A stretch of DNA of 64,000 bases from contig NZ_CP110128.1 of assembly GCF_028471945.1 (NCBI RefSeq), forward strand, positions 856,501 to 920,500. The letters run 5' to 3'. Shown here one piece after another: positions 46,010 to 52,761 of the stretch. The translations under genes and the position numbers were made by a program. Under the pieces are notes generated by a model. The model was given only the letters and a program-made list of their open reading frames with translations. It was not told the origin of the DNA and did no database searches. The stretch's first letter is position 1. Each line of letters starts with the position of its first letter. This DNA comes from Pseudomonas sp. WJP1 (GTDB lineage: Bacteria; Pseudomonadota; Gammaproteobacteria; Pseudomonadales; Pseudomonadaceae).

Positions 46010-47062
46010 ATGAGTAAATTCTGGAGCCCGTTCGTCAAGAACCTGGTGCCCTACGTACCGGGCGAACAGCCAAAGCTGGCAAAACTGGTGAAGCTCAACA
46101 CCAACGAAAACCCGTACGGTCCATCGCCCAAGGCCCTGGCTGCGATGCAGACCGAACTGAACGACAACCTGCGCCTGTACCCGGACCCGAACAGCGATCT
46201 GCTGAAAAATGCCGTCGCCAAGTACTACGGCGTGCAGAGCAACCAGGTGTTCCTCGGCAACGGTTCCGACGAAGTCCTGGCGCACATCTTCCACGGCTTG
46301 CTGCAGCACGATCAGCCGCTGCTGTTCCCGGACATCAGCTACAGCTTCTATCCGGTCTACTGCGGTTTGTACGGCATCAAGTTCGATGCGGTGCCGCTGG
46401 ACGAGCAGTTCCAGATCAACCCTGCGGACTACGCCAAACCGAACGGCGGGATCATCTTCCCCAACCCGAACGCACCGACCGGTTGCCTGTTGGCGCTCGA
46501 GGCGGTCGAGCAAATCCTCAAGGCCAGCCCGGACTCGGTGGTCGTGGTGGATGAGGCCTACATCGACTTCGGTGGCGAGACGGCCATCACCTTGGTGGAC
46601 CGTTACCCGAACCTGCTGGTGACCCAGACCCTGTCCAAATCCCGTTCCCTGGCGGGCCTGCGGGTTGGCCTGGCGGTGGGGCATCCGGATCTGATCGAGG
46701 CGCTGGAGCGGATCAAGAACAGCTTCAACTCCTATCCGATCGATCGCATGGCGAATGTCGGCGCGGCGGCGGCGTTCGAGGATCGCGAGTACTTCGACAA
46801 GACGTGCCGTCTGGTCATCGAAAGCCGCGACAAGGTCGTTGCGCAATTGCAGGCCAAGGGCTTTGAAGTGCTGCCGTCGGCGGCGAACTTCATTTTCGCT
46901 CGTCACCCCATGCACGATGCGGCAGGCCTGGCAGCCAAACTGCGTGAGCAGGGCGTGATCGTGCGGCACTTCAAGCAGGAGCGGATTGCGCAGTTCTTGC
47001 GGATCAGTATTGGCACGCCGGAGCAGAATCAGGCGTTGGTTGATGGGCTTGGTGAGTTGTAA
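46010..47062 (+). CDS. hisC: Histidinol-phosphate aminotransferase
   Basis: A 350-residue PLP-dependent class I/II aminotransferase. The PLP lysine is K210 in [16 protein letters not shown], and [13 protein letters not shown] and NPNAPTGC are typical. The ATG at 46010 has GGGGAACTGAG upstream; the longer frame lies in hisD. Of special note, 107 bases of this gene (46709-46815) recur as a decayed copy at 48323-48416, past two foreign-looking genes. Confidence 0.97.
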
Positions 47063-47073
47063 ATTTTGAATGA

Positions 47074-47106
47074 GAACAGTTCCCGGTGTTTAGGCGGGAA
47101 CTGTTC
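47074..47106. terminator. Perfect hairpin between convergent hisC and an unknown gene
   Basis: An 11-base perfect inverted repeat, GAACAGTTCCC / GGGAACTGTTC, with an 11-base loop lies 11 bases after hisC and 17 bases past the end of the next gene on the other strand. No T-run follows on either strand. Confidence 0.5.
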
Positions 47107-47122
47107 TGTGTGATTACAATAA

Positions 47123-47599
47123 TTAATGTTTTTTATATGGCTCCCCGCTATGGGGCGCTTTTGAATTATAAATGTCTAGCTTTCCGCTCACCGTTGACCC
47201 ATCTGTTAAGGTCATGGTTACATTAGCTTTGATTCTTCCGTATCCAGGTGTAAATCGGCCACTAATGGTTCCGTTTTTTACGTCATATGCACGGTTATCA
47301 TATATAAATTTCCAGGAAACTTTGTAGTTTTGATCGCCCTCATTGAAGATCTGTATAAAGTCTTTTTCGGGCAGGATTTCACTGCGCAGGGATAGCAAAA
47401 TTGTATCGTTTTCGGTACCCCCACGCTCTGCACGGTTTTTTTCACTTAAGTAACGCGCAAATATCAGGCCTTCGGTCGTGCCGTTGTATCCGAATTCAAC
47501 TTTATCGGATTTAAGCTCAGTGCCCTCCCAGTTGAAAGTTGCTGTGCCTGAGTCGCGTGTGGATGTAAAGGCTGATTCGTCTTTTTTTTGACTGGTCAT
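47123..47599 (-). CDS. Unknown protein A of an AT-rich paralogous pair
   Basis: 158 residues that I do not recognise. There is no signal peptide or membrane helix. The sequence alternates hydrophobic and polar residues and is Gly/Thr/Asn-rich, suggesting a beta-sandwich. It resembles the next gene along its length: GTATFNWEG / GDATLNWSG, EGLIFARYL / GGLLFANYL, NGTISGRFTPGYGRIKA / EGSITGVFSNGYRKIEA. GC is about 40% by eye, well below the neighbours, and AAA, ATA and TTT codons are common, which points to acquisition by transfer. AAAGGA lies a proper distance before the ATG at 47599. It is the second gene of the pair (59-base gap). The function is unknown. Confidence 0.85.
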   Translation of the reverse strand: MTSQKKDESAFTSTRDSGTATFNWEGTELKSDKVEFGYNGTTEGLIFARYLSEKNRAERGGTENDTILLSLRSEILPEKDFIQIFNEGDQNYKVSWKFIYDNRAYDVKNGTISGRFTPGYGRIKANVTMTLTDGSTVSGKLDIYNSKAPHSGEPYKKH

Positions 47600-47658
47600 G
47601 GTTGCATCCTTTCTGCTGATTAAATTAGTGAGTGCTTATTTCTGTGGAAATAGCGGCT

Positions 47659-48099
47659 TTAAACTTTCTCTGCGTTAAATAAAGTTACGACGGTCTCGCC
47701 ATTTTCAAGCAGCATTCTGATTTCTGCTTCGATTTTTCTATATCCGTTAGAAAATACTCCAGTGATAGACCCTTCAGTCGCAAAATGTTCAGCGCCCTCG
47801 TAGAAAAGGCCCCACCGGAATGGATGGTTTGTGCTGCCAGCTTTGTAAGGCTGGTCGAATCTTTCAGGGATATCCGTATTGCTCAAGAAGCACGCTACAA
47901 CGATATCGGAATCGTTTCCGCCTTTTGAATTTTTGCTATCTGTCTGTCGTAAATAGTTTGCAAATAGCAACCCACCGGCGGTATTGGTGTTAAAACCTAC
48001 TGATGATGATGTGAGGTTTTTACCACTCCAGTTCAGGGTGGCATCTCCCTTTTCAATTTTAGTTTTAGGGTTATGTTTGTATGTTGGTTGAGTGGTCAT
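47659..48099 (-). CDS. Unknown protein B of an AT-rich paralogous pair
   Basis: 146 residues, roughly 30% identical to protein A by eye. The N-terminus (MTTQPTYKHNPKTKIEKGDATLNWSGK) is unstructured and polar. The core is predicted beta-rich, with an internal KGGNDSDIVVACFL segment, and it shares the GSITGVFSNGYRKIEAEI motif with A. It has no export signal. AAAAGGA precedes the ATG at 48099. It is the first gene of the pair; a perfect 18-base LuxR-type dyad lies 126 bases upstream. The AT-rich composition matches A, so the two probably arrived or duplicated together. No function can be assigned. Confidence 0.85.
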   Translation of the reverse strand: MTTQPTYKHNPKTKIEKGDATLNWSGKNLTSSSVGFNTNTAGGLLFANYLRQTDSKNSKGGNDSDIVVACFLSNTDIPERFDQPYKAGSTNHPFRWGLFYEGAEHFATEGSITGVFSNGYRKIEAEIRMLLENGETVVTLFNAEKV

Positions 48100-48224
48100 G
48101 ATTTTTCCTTTTAAGATAAAAGCTCTACCTGGACTGCAGTTCGTGTTTTTTGATGGGTGAACTTACTACGATTTCTCAAGACGAGGTTGCATTCACAGCT
48201 TACGACGTTTGAGAACGGTGATGT

Positions 48225-48242
48225 ACTGTCACAAGTGACAGT
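48225..48242. promoter_or_regulatory. Perfect 18-base dyad resembling a LuxR-type (las/rhl/phz) box
   Basis: ACTGTCACAAGTGACAGT is perfectly symmetrical. With one flanking base on each side it fits the NCT-N12-AGN form of las/rhl boxes, and its ACT...AGT ends match phz boxes of fluorescent pseudomonads. It lies 126-143 bases before the ATG at 48099. A weak TAAGCT at 48202-48197 on the minus strand would be the -10 if the box were centred near -42. The regulator is not in the window. Confidence 0.5.
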
Positions 48243-48322
48243 GCTTTAGTGCTTTTTGGAATCGCTTTTAATGTTGCGTATGAATATTAAAATAAGCGGT
48301 TGAGCAATTTTGAAACGATTGC

Positions 48323-48416
48323 CGGATCAGCATTGATCCTGTAGACGCGACGTATGGCGAATGTCGGCGCTGGGACGTTCGAGGACCGAGTACTTCGATA
48401 AGATTTGCGAGTTGGT
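48323..48416 (+). pseudogene. hisC: Decayed fragment of hisC
   Basis: These 94 bases align with hisC 46709-46815. A 17-base block, ATGGCGAATGTCGGCGC, is identical (48354-48370 and 46748-46764), and CGTTCGAGGA and AGTACTTCGA are shared further on. Several indels of 1 to 6 bases break the frame. About three quarters of aligned positions match by eye. It is in the same orientation as hisC and separated from it by the AT-rich pair, so it looks like the displaced old 3' part of hisC or a duplication relic. The rest of 48100-48572 holds the LuxR-like dyad, an AT-rich imperfect inverted repeat (48263-48298) and a REPIN. Confidence 0.75.
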
Positions 48417-48454
48417 GGGTCGACTGCCTCGGCAATCTTTGAGCCGCCACTTAT

Positions 48455-48557
48455 CCTGTAGGAGCGAGCTTGCTCGCGATGGACGACAACGATTACGCGC
48501 TTTATCTGAATGATCGCGGTTACCGAAAGTTTTTCGCGAGCAAGCTCGCTCCTACAA
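48455..48557. repeat. REPIN, GTAGGAGCG class
   Basis: Arms GTAGGAGCGAGCTTGCTCGC and GCGAGCAAGCTCGCTCCTAC are perfectly complementary over 20 bases. It stands downstream of the DUF4198 gene and beyond the hisC remnant. Confidence 0.92.
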
Positions 48558-48572: not shown

Positions 48573-49292
48573 TTATTCGTGATGCGGCTCGCCCAAAAAC
48601 GTCAGCGAGCTGAACAATCCCCGACTGCTCACGTCAGTGCTGTCCTTCACCGGCACTTCCAACTGCGCCGCAATCACATTCAACCCTTCATTGCGCACCA
48701 GCACCTGCGCCCGACCGTCTGCATCAGTCTCGGTGGTCAGGGTGTTCGGCGCGTTGCGGTAGTCGCCAACCAACTTCACTCCCGCCGCCGGCTTGCCGTC
48801 CAGTAGCACCCGGACCGGCAACGACTGGCCCGGTCCAACGCCCAGCGGATCGACCTCCGGCAGGATCAGCAGTTTGATCTGATCGAGTTTCGGCAGCTTC
48901 GCTCCCGGCTGATAAATCGCCAGGCTGTATTTGAATGTCTCTGTGGATTCGATGGCGCCGGGCACTTTGCTGCGGCCCTCGTTGATCCATTTTTTATCGG
49001 CTGTTTGCGACCACATGCCGTTGTTCAATGCCACCGCGATAACGGCGGGCGGCTTCAGCGGTTGCAGGCGCGCGTGATCGGCCAGGCGCTGCACCGTGAC
49101 CGGAATCATTTTTCCATTGCCGTCGTAGGCCCAGGCGCCGCTGATTTTCTGCGCTTTGAACGCATTGTCCTCGGCGCCGTGGCCGTAGATCACTTCGATG
49201 TTGCCGCGGCGTTGTTCGGTCCACAGACCGTGGGCGGAGACTTGGGTGGCGAACAGCAAACCGAGCAGCGCCAGGGGTTTGAGAGGGTGCAT
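48573..49292 (-). CDS. DUF4198 (NikM-like) periplasmic protein
   Basis: 239 residues with a signal peptide (LKPLALLGLLFATQVSA). Cleavage at VSA|HGLW would leave an N-terminal histidine, and a second histidine follows in EVIYGHGAEDN. The C-terminal half is an Ig-like beta-domain (DPLGVGPGQSLPVRVLLDGKPAAGVKLVGDYRN), and the chain ends in EPHHE. The DUF4198 family is found with metal and TonB transport systems; its biochemical role is unproved. It starts 12 bases after the TonB receptor gene and is surely co-transcribed. A metal-handling role beside the receptor is my inference. Confidence 0.85.
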   Translation of the reverse strand: MHPLKPLALLGLLFATQVSAHGLWTEQRRGNIEVIYGHGAEDNAFKAQKISGAWAYDGNGKMIPVTVQRLADHARLQPLKPPAVIAVALNNGMWSQTADKKWINEGRSKVPGAIESTETFKYSLAIYQPGAKLPKLDQIKLLILPEVDPLGVGPGQSLPVRVLLDGKPAAGVKLVGDYRNAPNTLTTETDADGRAQVLVRNEGLNVIAAQLEVPVKDSTDVSSRGLFSSLTFLGEPHHE

Positions 49293-51497: not shown

Positions 51498-52658
51498 TTA
51501 GTTCTCTTCTTTTTCCTTGACCGGCGCAGGCGGCGGACGCAAGCCGATTTCTGCCGTGAGCTTGAGCTCCTTGCCGTTGCGCATCACCTGGATAGTGACC
51601 TTATCGGTCGGCTTGATCCGCGCCACCTGGTTCATCGAGCGACGGCCATCGCCTGCTGGCTCGCCGTCGATGCTGAGAATCACGTCACCCAATTGCAGGC
51701 CGGCCTTTTGCGCCGGACCGTCGCGGAAAATCCCCGCCACCACAATGCCCGGACGCCCCGACAGGCCAAACGACTCCGCCAGTTCCTGGGACAATGGCTG
51801 CACTTCGATACCAAGCCAGCCGCGAATCACCTGGCCGTGTTCGATGATCGACTTCATCACCTCCATGGCCAGCTTCACCGGAATCGCGAAACCGATGCCT
51901 TGCGAACCGCCGGACTTGGAGAAGATCGCCGTGTTGATGCCGGTCAGGTTGCCATTGGCGTCCACCAGCGCACCGCCGGAGTTGCCAGGGTTGATCGCGG
52001 CGTCGGTCTGGATGAAGTCTTCGTAGTTGTTCAGGCCCAGCTGATTGCGCCCGGTGGCACTGATGATGCCCATGGTCACCGTCTGGCCAACGCCGAACGG
52101 GTTGCCGATGGCGAGGGCCACGTCACCGATGCGGATGTTGTCGGAGCGGCCGACGGTGATCGAAGGCAGTTTCTTCAGGTCGATCTTGAGGACCGCGAGG
52201 TCGGTTTCCGGGTCACTGCCGATCACCCGCGCCAAGGTTTCGCGGCCGTCCTTGAGCGCCACCACGATCTGGTCGGCACCGCTGGTCACGTGGTTGTTGG
52301 TCAGGATGTAGCCTTCCGGGCTCATGATCACGCCGGAGCCGAGGCTCGACTCCATGCGTTTCTGCTTGGGCGAGTTGTCGCCGAAGAAGCGACGAAACTG
52401 CGGGTCCTCGAACAGCGGATGATTGGGTTTGTTGATGACTTTGGTGGTGTACAGGTTCACCACCGACGGCGCGGCGGTGGTCACCGCGTCGGCATAAGAC
52501 ACCGGGCCTTGCTGCATGCTGGTGGTTTGCGGGGCTTGTTGCAGGTTCACGTCGAGGCTTGGAAGCCCGACCCACTGCGGGTAACGCTGGATGATTAACA
52601 GAGCGACAAGCACGCCGGCCAACAACGGCCAGCCGGAAAAACGCAGCGCCTTGAGCAT
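51498..52658 (-). CDS. algW: Periplasmic serine protease AlgW (DegS-like)
   Basis: 386 residues: an N-terminal membrane anchor (GWPLLAGVLVALLIIQRY), a trypsin-like domain with His in TNNHVTSG, Asp in ETDLAVLKI and Ser in DAAINPGNSGGALVD, then one PDZ domain (about residues 285-375). In P. aeruginosa AlgW cleaves MucA after sensing misfolded outer-membrane proteins, releasing sigma factor AlgU. ATG at 52658 (MLKALRFSG) is chosen over a longer frame to 52727. It diverges from the Nif3-like gene across a 103-base gap. Confidence 0.95.
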   Translation of the reverse strand: MLKALRFSGWPLLAGVLVALLIIQRYPQWVGLPSLDVNLQQAPQTTSMQQGPVSYADAVTTAAPSVVNLYTTKVINKPNHPLFEDPQFRRFFGDNSPKQKRMESSLGSGVIMSPEGYILTNNHVTSGADQIVVALKDGRETLARVIGSDPETDLAVLKIDLKKLPSITVGRSDNIRIGDVALAIGNPFGVGQTVTMGIISATGRNQLGLNNYEDFIQTDAAINPGNSGGALVDANGNLTGINTAIFSKSGGSQGIGFAIPVKLAMEVMKSIIEHGQVIRGWLGIEVQPLSQELAESFGLSGRPGIVVAGIFRDGPAQKAGLQLGDVILSIDGEPAGDGRRSMNQVARIKPTDKVTIQVMRNGKELKLTAEIGLRPPPAPVKEKEEN

Positions 52659-52700
52659 TAAGCACGTCCTGAGAGAGTTGCAGGCGGTATGAGACCGCTC

Positions 52701-52717
52701 ATAATGACGCGCATTAT
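52701..52717. promoter_or_regulatory. Dyad between divergent algW and the nif3-like gene
   Basis: ATAATG and CATTAT with a 5-base spacer form a symmetrical element. Each arm with its flank (TATAATGC on the minus strand, CATTATAC on the plus) could serve as a -10 box, suggesting back-to-back promoters. Confidence 0.35.
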
Positions 52718-52761
52718 ACGAGGCCACGCGTGCCTCTGAACGGGATATTTAGGAGTCTTTT

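Follow-up and report, generated by a model that had tools for sequence, protein, structure and literature searches.

Exchangeable small-protein genes behind a lux-type palindrome in Pseudomonas: candidate targets of a LuxR solo

This report concerns two small adjacent genes, A and B, in a stretch of 64,000 nucleotides (nt) of contig NZ_CP110128.1 of Pseudomonas sp. WJP1; the whole of this stretch is referred to below as the window. A and B were found to be members of an undescribed, hyperdivergent superfamily that, among the genomes sampled, occurs in Pseudomonas only, and B lies behind a palindromic box, CTGTCA-N4-TGACAG, which nearly all promoters of the superfamily share. We propose, with confidence about evenly divided, that A and B encode exchangeable accessory proteins that are controlled by a LuxR solo and used against other organisms, the link to the regulator being a correlation and the activity one that we infer.

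Results

Genes A and B. A preliminary description made from the letters of this DNA had reported two adjacent minus-strand open reading frames (ORFs) of 158 and 146 amino acids (aa), and their coordinates, strand and lengths were as claimed (Table 1). They are convergent with hisC and lie behind its 3' end, and since A starts only 59 nt downstream of B the two presumably form one operon. The resemblance between the two products was borne out by BLASTP (46/139 identical residues, 33%; E value of 3e-22). The statement that they belong to no known family also stood, as Pfam, NCBIfam, PHROGs and PADLOC gave neither protein a match at cut-off or with a convincing E value (PHROGs reached only 0.12 for A and 0.26 for B, and PADLOC gave zero matches), and the PDB sequence set gave zero matches over the cut-off. 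The best Pfam match of A was to the lamin tail domain (PF00932, LTD; E value of 0.0093, residues 73 to 136), but its 16.8 bits are half the gathering cut-off of 34.3, and such a match was found in only 1 of 22 superfamily members. No hydrophobic N-terminal stretch was visible in A or B by eye, in agreement with the reported lack of a signal peptide, although no signal-peptide program was run. The structure models of A and B were all-beta, consistent with the predicted beta-rich character, but with pLDDT (predicted local distance difference test) scores of 56 to 61 they were too weak to decide on a fold, such as a calycin, TbpB-like or YceI-like barrel, and fold matches were discarded as evidence for function.

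The coding G+C content (GC) is 0.430 for A and 0.426 for B, against 0.600 for the window, and 300-base segments within positions 47050 to 48400 range from 0.40 to 0.45. The GC of "about 40%" previously given was thus right in being low and slightly under the actual 0.43, and the suggestion of a transferred low-GC cassette was supported.

Table 1. Features at the hisC-algW slot of the window
Feature	Position	Strand	Comment
hisC (name presumed)	46010..47062	+	core gene; cassette at its 3' end
Inverted repeat, putative terminator-like hairpin	47073..47107		between hisC and A; from sequence
Gene A	47123..47599	-	158 aa; paralogous to B; lacks its own box
Gene B	47659..48099	-	146 aa; first gene after the box
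Palindromic box CTGTCA-N4-TGACAG	48226..48241		exact; in front of B, its far edge 142 nt from the B start codon
Decayed hisC 3' remnant	48351..48444	+	far side of the cassette
Imperfect inverted repeat, presumably REP/REPIN-like	48457..48556		opposite-strand self-match; separates the hisC remnant from the neighboring gene
Neighboring gene, presumably DUF4198-like	48573..49292	-	same place in many relatives
algW (name presumed)	51498..52727	-	other core boundary of the slot

A superfamily of divergent small proteins. In all, 31 superfamily genes were collected from 26 Pseudomonas genomes, with products of about 130 to 160 aa and coding GC of 0.41 to 0.57. When each gene was tested against a profile built without it, A was recovered with an E value of 3e-30 and B with 8e-37. 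B alone as the query found a relative in 5/397 genomes of the genus, but this undercounts the carriers, since a profile of nine members (A2) recovered 13/397 at an E value of ≤0.01 and the profile A5 recovered 19/199 at ≤1e-3. A family-wide search with a narrower profile, A1, was positive in 3/398 genomes, all within Pseudomonas; a class-wide sample of 224 genomes gave only that of WJP1 itself (0/223 others); and scans of genome contigs, viral contigs, plasmids and phages found no relative, the contig scans reaching close relatives only. Three members were discovered through their box, those of G107, G034 and G053 (G numbers denote other Pseudomonas genomes of the sample; L numbers denote loci fetched from them or from the WJP1 genome). 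Against the nine-member profile they scored E values of 9e-5, 0.017 and 18, and against one built from the remaining 21 members, 7e-19, 1e-11 and 4e-15, respectively. The other small box-driven proteins of WJP1 were considered as members and rejected, as their best E value was 0.012 and a search of the genome recovered A and B only.

The ratio of nonsynonymous to synonymous substitution rates (dN/dS) was between 0.10 and 0.40 in six of the seven computable pairs: 0.35 for G203-G646, 0.40 for B-G628, 0.27 for G005-G137 (at a dS of 1.8, near saturation) and 0.10 to 0.15 for three pairs among G124, G173 and G010. The seventh, G137-G151, gave 1.75 at a dS of 0.08, and three further pairs were saturated. 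For hisC, the five pairs computed gave 0.04 to 0.07. The superfamily genes are therefore retained yet fast-changing. The idea that they are nonfunctional transferred debris, to which low GC, patchy occurrence and decayed core fragments nearby might point, is very improbable in view of these ratios and of the promoter conservation described below.

The palindromic box. The box, a feature absent from the preliminary description, was present with at most one mismatch in 28/30 first-gene promoters (18 exact), compared with 1/1,800 approximate dinucleotide shuffles at the same threshold; leaving out the three members discovered through it, the count was 25/27. It lies between -76 and -142 from the start codon (at about -84 in G021), and the two exceptions, G112 and G220, have versions with three mismatches at -97 and -94. 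The lux and las-rhl boxes have the format CT-N2-CA-N4-TG-N2-AG, a dyad that CTGTCA-N4-TGACAG fits and that is present in the promoter of B. Across 119 genomes there were 856 exact sites, against 14 for a reversed control pattern; 83 of the 119 held at least one, the maximum being 35. The richest were G044, G070, G062, G074 and G084, with 28 to 35 exact boxes each, and G062 and G074 have superfamily members. At a locus of G074 away from hisC (L152), two small neighboring ORFs (788 to 1216 and 1480 to 1920) are each preceded by an exact box, and the second has a weak superfamily match (E value of 1.4e-4). The box was not found in the full-text literature in the spellings searched, and among the papers listed by searches on the slot and the regulator, no title or abstract opening described the hisC-algW slot or this regulon.

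The WJP1 genome holds 13 exact sites, each with a predicted ORF (chosen by length and position) that starts 55 to 280 nt downstream; the GC is below 0.53 in 10 of the 13 ORFs. Among them are trypsin-like (PF13365), delta-60-repeat (PF17164) and autotransporter-barrel (GC of 0.61) proteins and three further proteins of 147 to 151 aa; one more looked like a phosphatidylinositol-specific phospholipase C by eye only, Pfam giving a sub-threshold fn3 match. At L034 (4106 to 8368), tandem genes of 674 and 672 aa have a box each and nearly identical C-terminal parts; the first, which alone was scanned, matched no Pfam or NCBIfam family. At L041 (1 to 4169), a box-driven gene of 649 aa is followed by an Rhs-core ORF (TIGR03696), and at L036 (2113 to 2556), a box-driven protein of 147 aa scores weakly, and below the threshold, against NF052634 (Riean_0653 family).

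A candidate regulator. One protein of the WJP1 genome has an acyl-homoserine lactone-binding domain (PF03472, E value of 6.5e-22) together with a GerE domain (PF00196, 5.8e-14). This LuxR solo sits between an fpr-like gene, whose best model was NF008178 (E value of 7.8e-65; 218.6 bits against a cut-off of 390), and a gene that we take to be rlmG-like. Searches with the LuxI family (PF00765) gave no match in this genome, but the control genomes were likewise without a match, so a synthase may have been missed.

According to the passages of PMC8546723 consulted, subgroup A solos are flanked by ferredoxin-NADP+ reductase and 23S rRNA methyltransferase genes and occur in almost all fluorescent Pseudomonas species, and for one of them, Ppu16R, no dependent promoter activity of the flanking genes was detected. 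Because its domains and flanks agree with that account, the WJP1 solo fits subgroup A. PpoR of P. putida is described in part of PMC2703642 as binding 3-oxohexanoyl-homoserine lactone (3-oxo-C6-HSL), with targets sought by array; its main text contains neither "lux box" nor "binding site". The consulted passages of the two papers give no binding site or direct target site, and what is proposed here differs in offering a concrete palindrome, genome-wide sites and bare helix-turn-helix (HTH) versions of the regulator.

The number of boxes followed the state of this locus. At least three boxes were present in 34/34 of the genomes with a full-length solo at ≥45% identity, in 21/29 at 35 to 44% and in 2/19 below 35%, and likewise in 8/9 with only an HTH part at ≥47%, in 0/3 with a weaker partial match and in 0/25 with none (G065, a partial match of 130 residues, being counted as HTH-only and G088, a broken gene in two pieces, as full-length). 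Genomes with and without a qualifying regulator thus differed as 63/72 and 2/47, with identity limits chosen after the counts had been seen and counts that are not phylogenetically independent; the same comparison gave 58/63 and 0/10 among the 73 genomes closest by hisC, and 47/47 and 0/3 among the closest 50. The locus was read in seven of the nine genomes with only an HTH part (L153 to L158 and L160, from G068, G085, G020, G022, G115, G018 and G056); each has an ORF of 77 to 118 aa between fpr and rlmG and still carries 3 to 10 exact boxes. The best support for recognition of the box by the fpr-rlmG HTH comes from these cases, because the same locus keeps a bare HTH while the search did not show the sensor part. 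On the strength of this correlation, we regard the LuxR-type HTH at fpr-rlmG as the most likely regulator of the box.

The box might instead belong to another regulator, the fpr-rlmG solo being merely co-distributed with it by phylogeny. The solo was the sole regulator compared with box counts, the genus-wide counts share ancestry, and 5 of the 63 qualifying genomes among the 73 closest hold fewer than three boxes. This explanation is nonetheless unlikely, given the lux-type format of the box, the bare HTH versions that still accompany it and the close relatives G092, G061 and G073, which are without a qualifying solo and have no box while the other 47 of the closest 50 have at least three.

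Occupancy of the hisC-algW slot. The genes that we take to be hisC and algW bound the slot in which A and B lie, although they are not direct neighbors here, two further genes, presumably DUF4198-like and TonB-receptor-like, separating B from algW. The slot held the superfamily gene in 5/5 carriers found with B alone, in 11/13 found with the nine-member profile and in 18/26 of all those collected (3 of the 18 having been discovered by inspecting the slot itself). In the other 8/26 the gene is elsewhere, beside one gene, presumably sulfatase-like, in G150, G098 and G111. The region downstream of hisC was read in 70 of the 119 genomes, namely the 73 with the best hisC matches less G066, G076 and G007 (in G035 and G089, only about 50 nt past hisC were covered). 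In 37 the slot was empty, with the next core gene less than 300 nt from hisC; 8 held a superfamily gene, 3 another insert of 0.6 to 1 kb, and the other 22 showed no core gene over the length covered (23/70 stretches show none when that of WJP1 itself is included). The slot is therefore empty in at least 37 of the 62 noncarriers read. In 8/70 the interval from hisC to the following core gene contained a box, and these were the same 8 that have a superfamily gene; a search of the 70 slots with A5, which recovers these 8 by construction since it was built with their genes, found zero further matches.

The claim that the cassette interrupts a conserved hisC-algW neighborhood thus holds in that the next core gene follows hisC within 300 nt in 37/70 genomes. 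The preliminary description would have been refuted had the pair stood at one place and at ordinary GC in the whole genus; the place agreed, but occupancy is patchy (8/70 slots) and GC ranges from 0.41 to 0.57. A dedicated two-component A-B system is not supported, since relatives mostly occur singly in this slot and the box in front of B has no counterpart before A.

In L148 and L149 (G137 and G151), only fragments of the two genes frequently found between hisC and algW accompany the slot gene. Putative hairpin elements resembling the one between hisC and A also come after the copies of the hisC 3' end in G646 and G628.

Core-gene relics. On the far side of the cassette, the hisC relic of the window is 81% identical to hisC over positions 48351 to 48403 (E value of 6.5e-7) and 72% over a longer alignment of 101 columns, and the upstream sides of B and of the closest relative of B, which is in G628, can be aligned for 240 nt with 74% identity. 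The two genes of G628 have core-gene pieces (hisD/hisC and hisC) lying between and next to them; G293 and G327 each have two genes with a box apiece, separated by a hisC piece and an algW piece, respectively. Core-gene pieces were found between the copies in 3/3 hisC slots with separately promoted copies. In G646, its own hisC is followed further on by an algW 3' piece that is fused with another hisC 3' piece; after these come the gene and a complete algW. The fusion point is a 12-nt word common to hisC and algW. For single-copy slots other than those of the window and G646, the searches made did not show a second hisC or algW piece. A stretch similar to the imperfect inverted repeat of the window adjoins the hisC remnant in G628, and in G059 (L113) a second hisC 3' copy lies about 70 to 90 nt past hisC, with no superfamily match in the stretch read.

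Leftovers of hisC, hisD or algW beside the genes point to entry by recombination through core-gene flanks. The simplest reading is the transfer of DNA flanked by hisC and algW, in which one flank is exchanged by homology and the other is sometimes joined illegitimately, a process known as homology-facilitated illegitimate recombination; tandem duplication is an alternative for some of the stacked cases. An integrase-bearing mobile element was rejected, since the boundaries are core-gene pieces and none was seen by eye in the slots read, no dedicated search being made.

Discussion

We suggest that A and B would be an operon of two duplicated superfamily members, and that such genes may be acquired, swapped and stacked at a small number of fixed slots, of which hisC-algW is the main one, through homologous recombination in the core-gene flanks, with one end sometimes joined illegitimately at a short microhomology so that pieces of hisC or algW are left behind. 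Each cassette would carry its own promoter with the box. A LuxR-type regulator, most likely the fpr-rlmG solo, would bind this box and activate the cassette gene along with a wider group of accessory genes, most of them low in GC; these include trypsin-like, delta-60-repeat and probably Rhs-like genes and others that match no known family. The product would most likely be an arms-race protein aimed at competitors, at predators or at hosts, and, with no signal peptide visible, it might leave the cell by lysis or through some exporter. Action on other organisms is suggested because alleles are exchanged at one slot and change fast, because co-regulation with protease, repeat and Rhs-like proteins is likely, and because control would be by a quorum-type receptor, for which no synthase partner was found, the control genomes also being silent.

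Several observations weigh against this proposal. The link to the regulator is a correlation obtained with post hoc identity thresholds, to which shared ancestry contributes; genomes whose full-length solo is below 35% identity have, for the most part, few boxes or none, and fewer than three are present in 8 of the 29 genomes at 35 to 44%. For A and B no export signal was visible and no family, motif or relative of solved structure was found to match, and the small box-driven proteins elsewhere in the genome do not, by sequence comparison, appear to be clear members of the superfamily. The dN/dS of 1.75 comes from a single pair at a dS of 0.08, with three further pairs saturated; G112 and G220 hold only three-mismatch relics of the box; and 22 of the 70 hisC regions were too short or too different to be classified. 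An effect of the products on other organisms is what the proposal supposes.

The main rival is that the superfamily consists of immunity proteins, the slot being an orphan locus that collects cassettes against neighbors' toxins and is induced by competitors' signals. Small, soluble-looking proteins that diverge fast around a few fixed residues would suit this role, as would the stacked copies in one slot (G628, G293 and G327), the low GC and the core-gene relics. We nevertheless consider it improbable, since the box also precedes trypsin-like, delta-60-repeat and Rhs-followed genes, which looks more like weaponry than protection, and no toxin gene or remnant was seen by eye in the slots read (mostly with flanks of about 1.5 kb), no dedicated toxin search being made. 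As we understand them, polymorphic effector/immunity cassettes exchanged at fixed loci likewise have one slot, divergent alleles, stacked copies and pieces of neighboring genes in between; the present genes differ in that no large toxin gene was seen, there is no swapping of C-terminal tips and each unit has its own regulated promoter. Slightly less probable still is an intracellular barrel of the calycin, avidin or YceI-like kind that binds a small ligand, with a metabolic or signal-sequestering role; the models are all-beta but too weak to decide on such a fold.

For the fluorescent pseudomonads as a group, we put forward, a little short of an even chance, an undescribed arsenal controlled by a LuxR solo and marked by the box. 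The superfamily would be its most variable part, traded between species as promoter-bearing cassettes through the 3' ends of core genes, and in some lineages the solo would have lost its signal domain and act as a bare HTH. The box would give the subgroup A solos a directly testable candidate regulon, and the superfamily would be the hypervariable, horizontally traded output of that regulon, the usual sign of conflict with other organisms. The relics suggest that single genes may spread between species simply, with no transposon or integrase, by using the ends of core genes as recombination handles.
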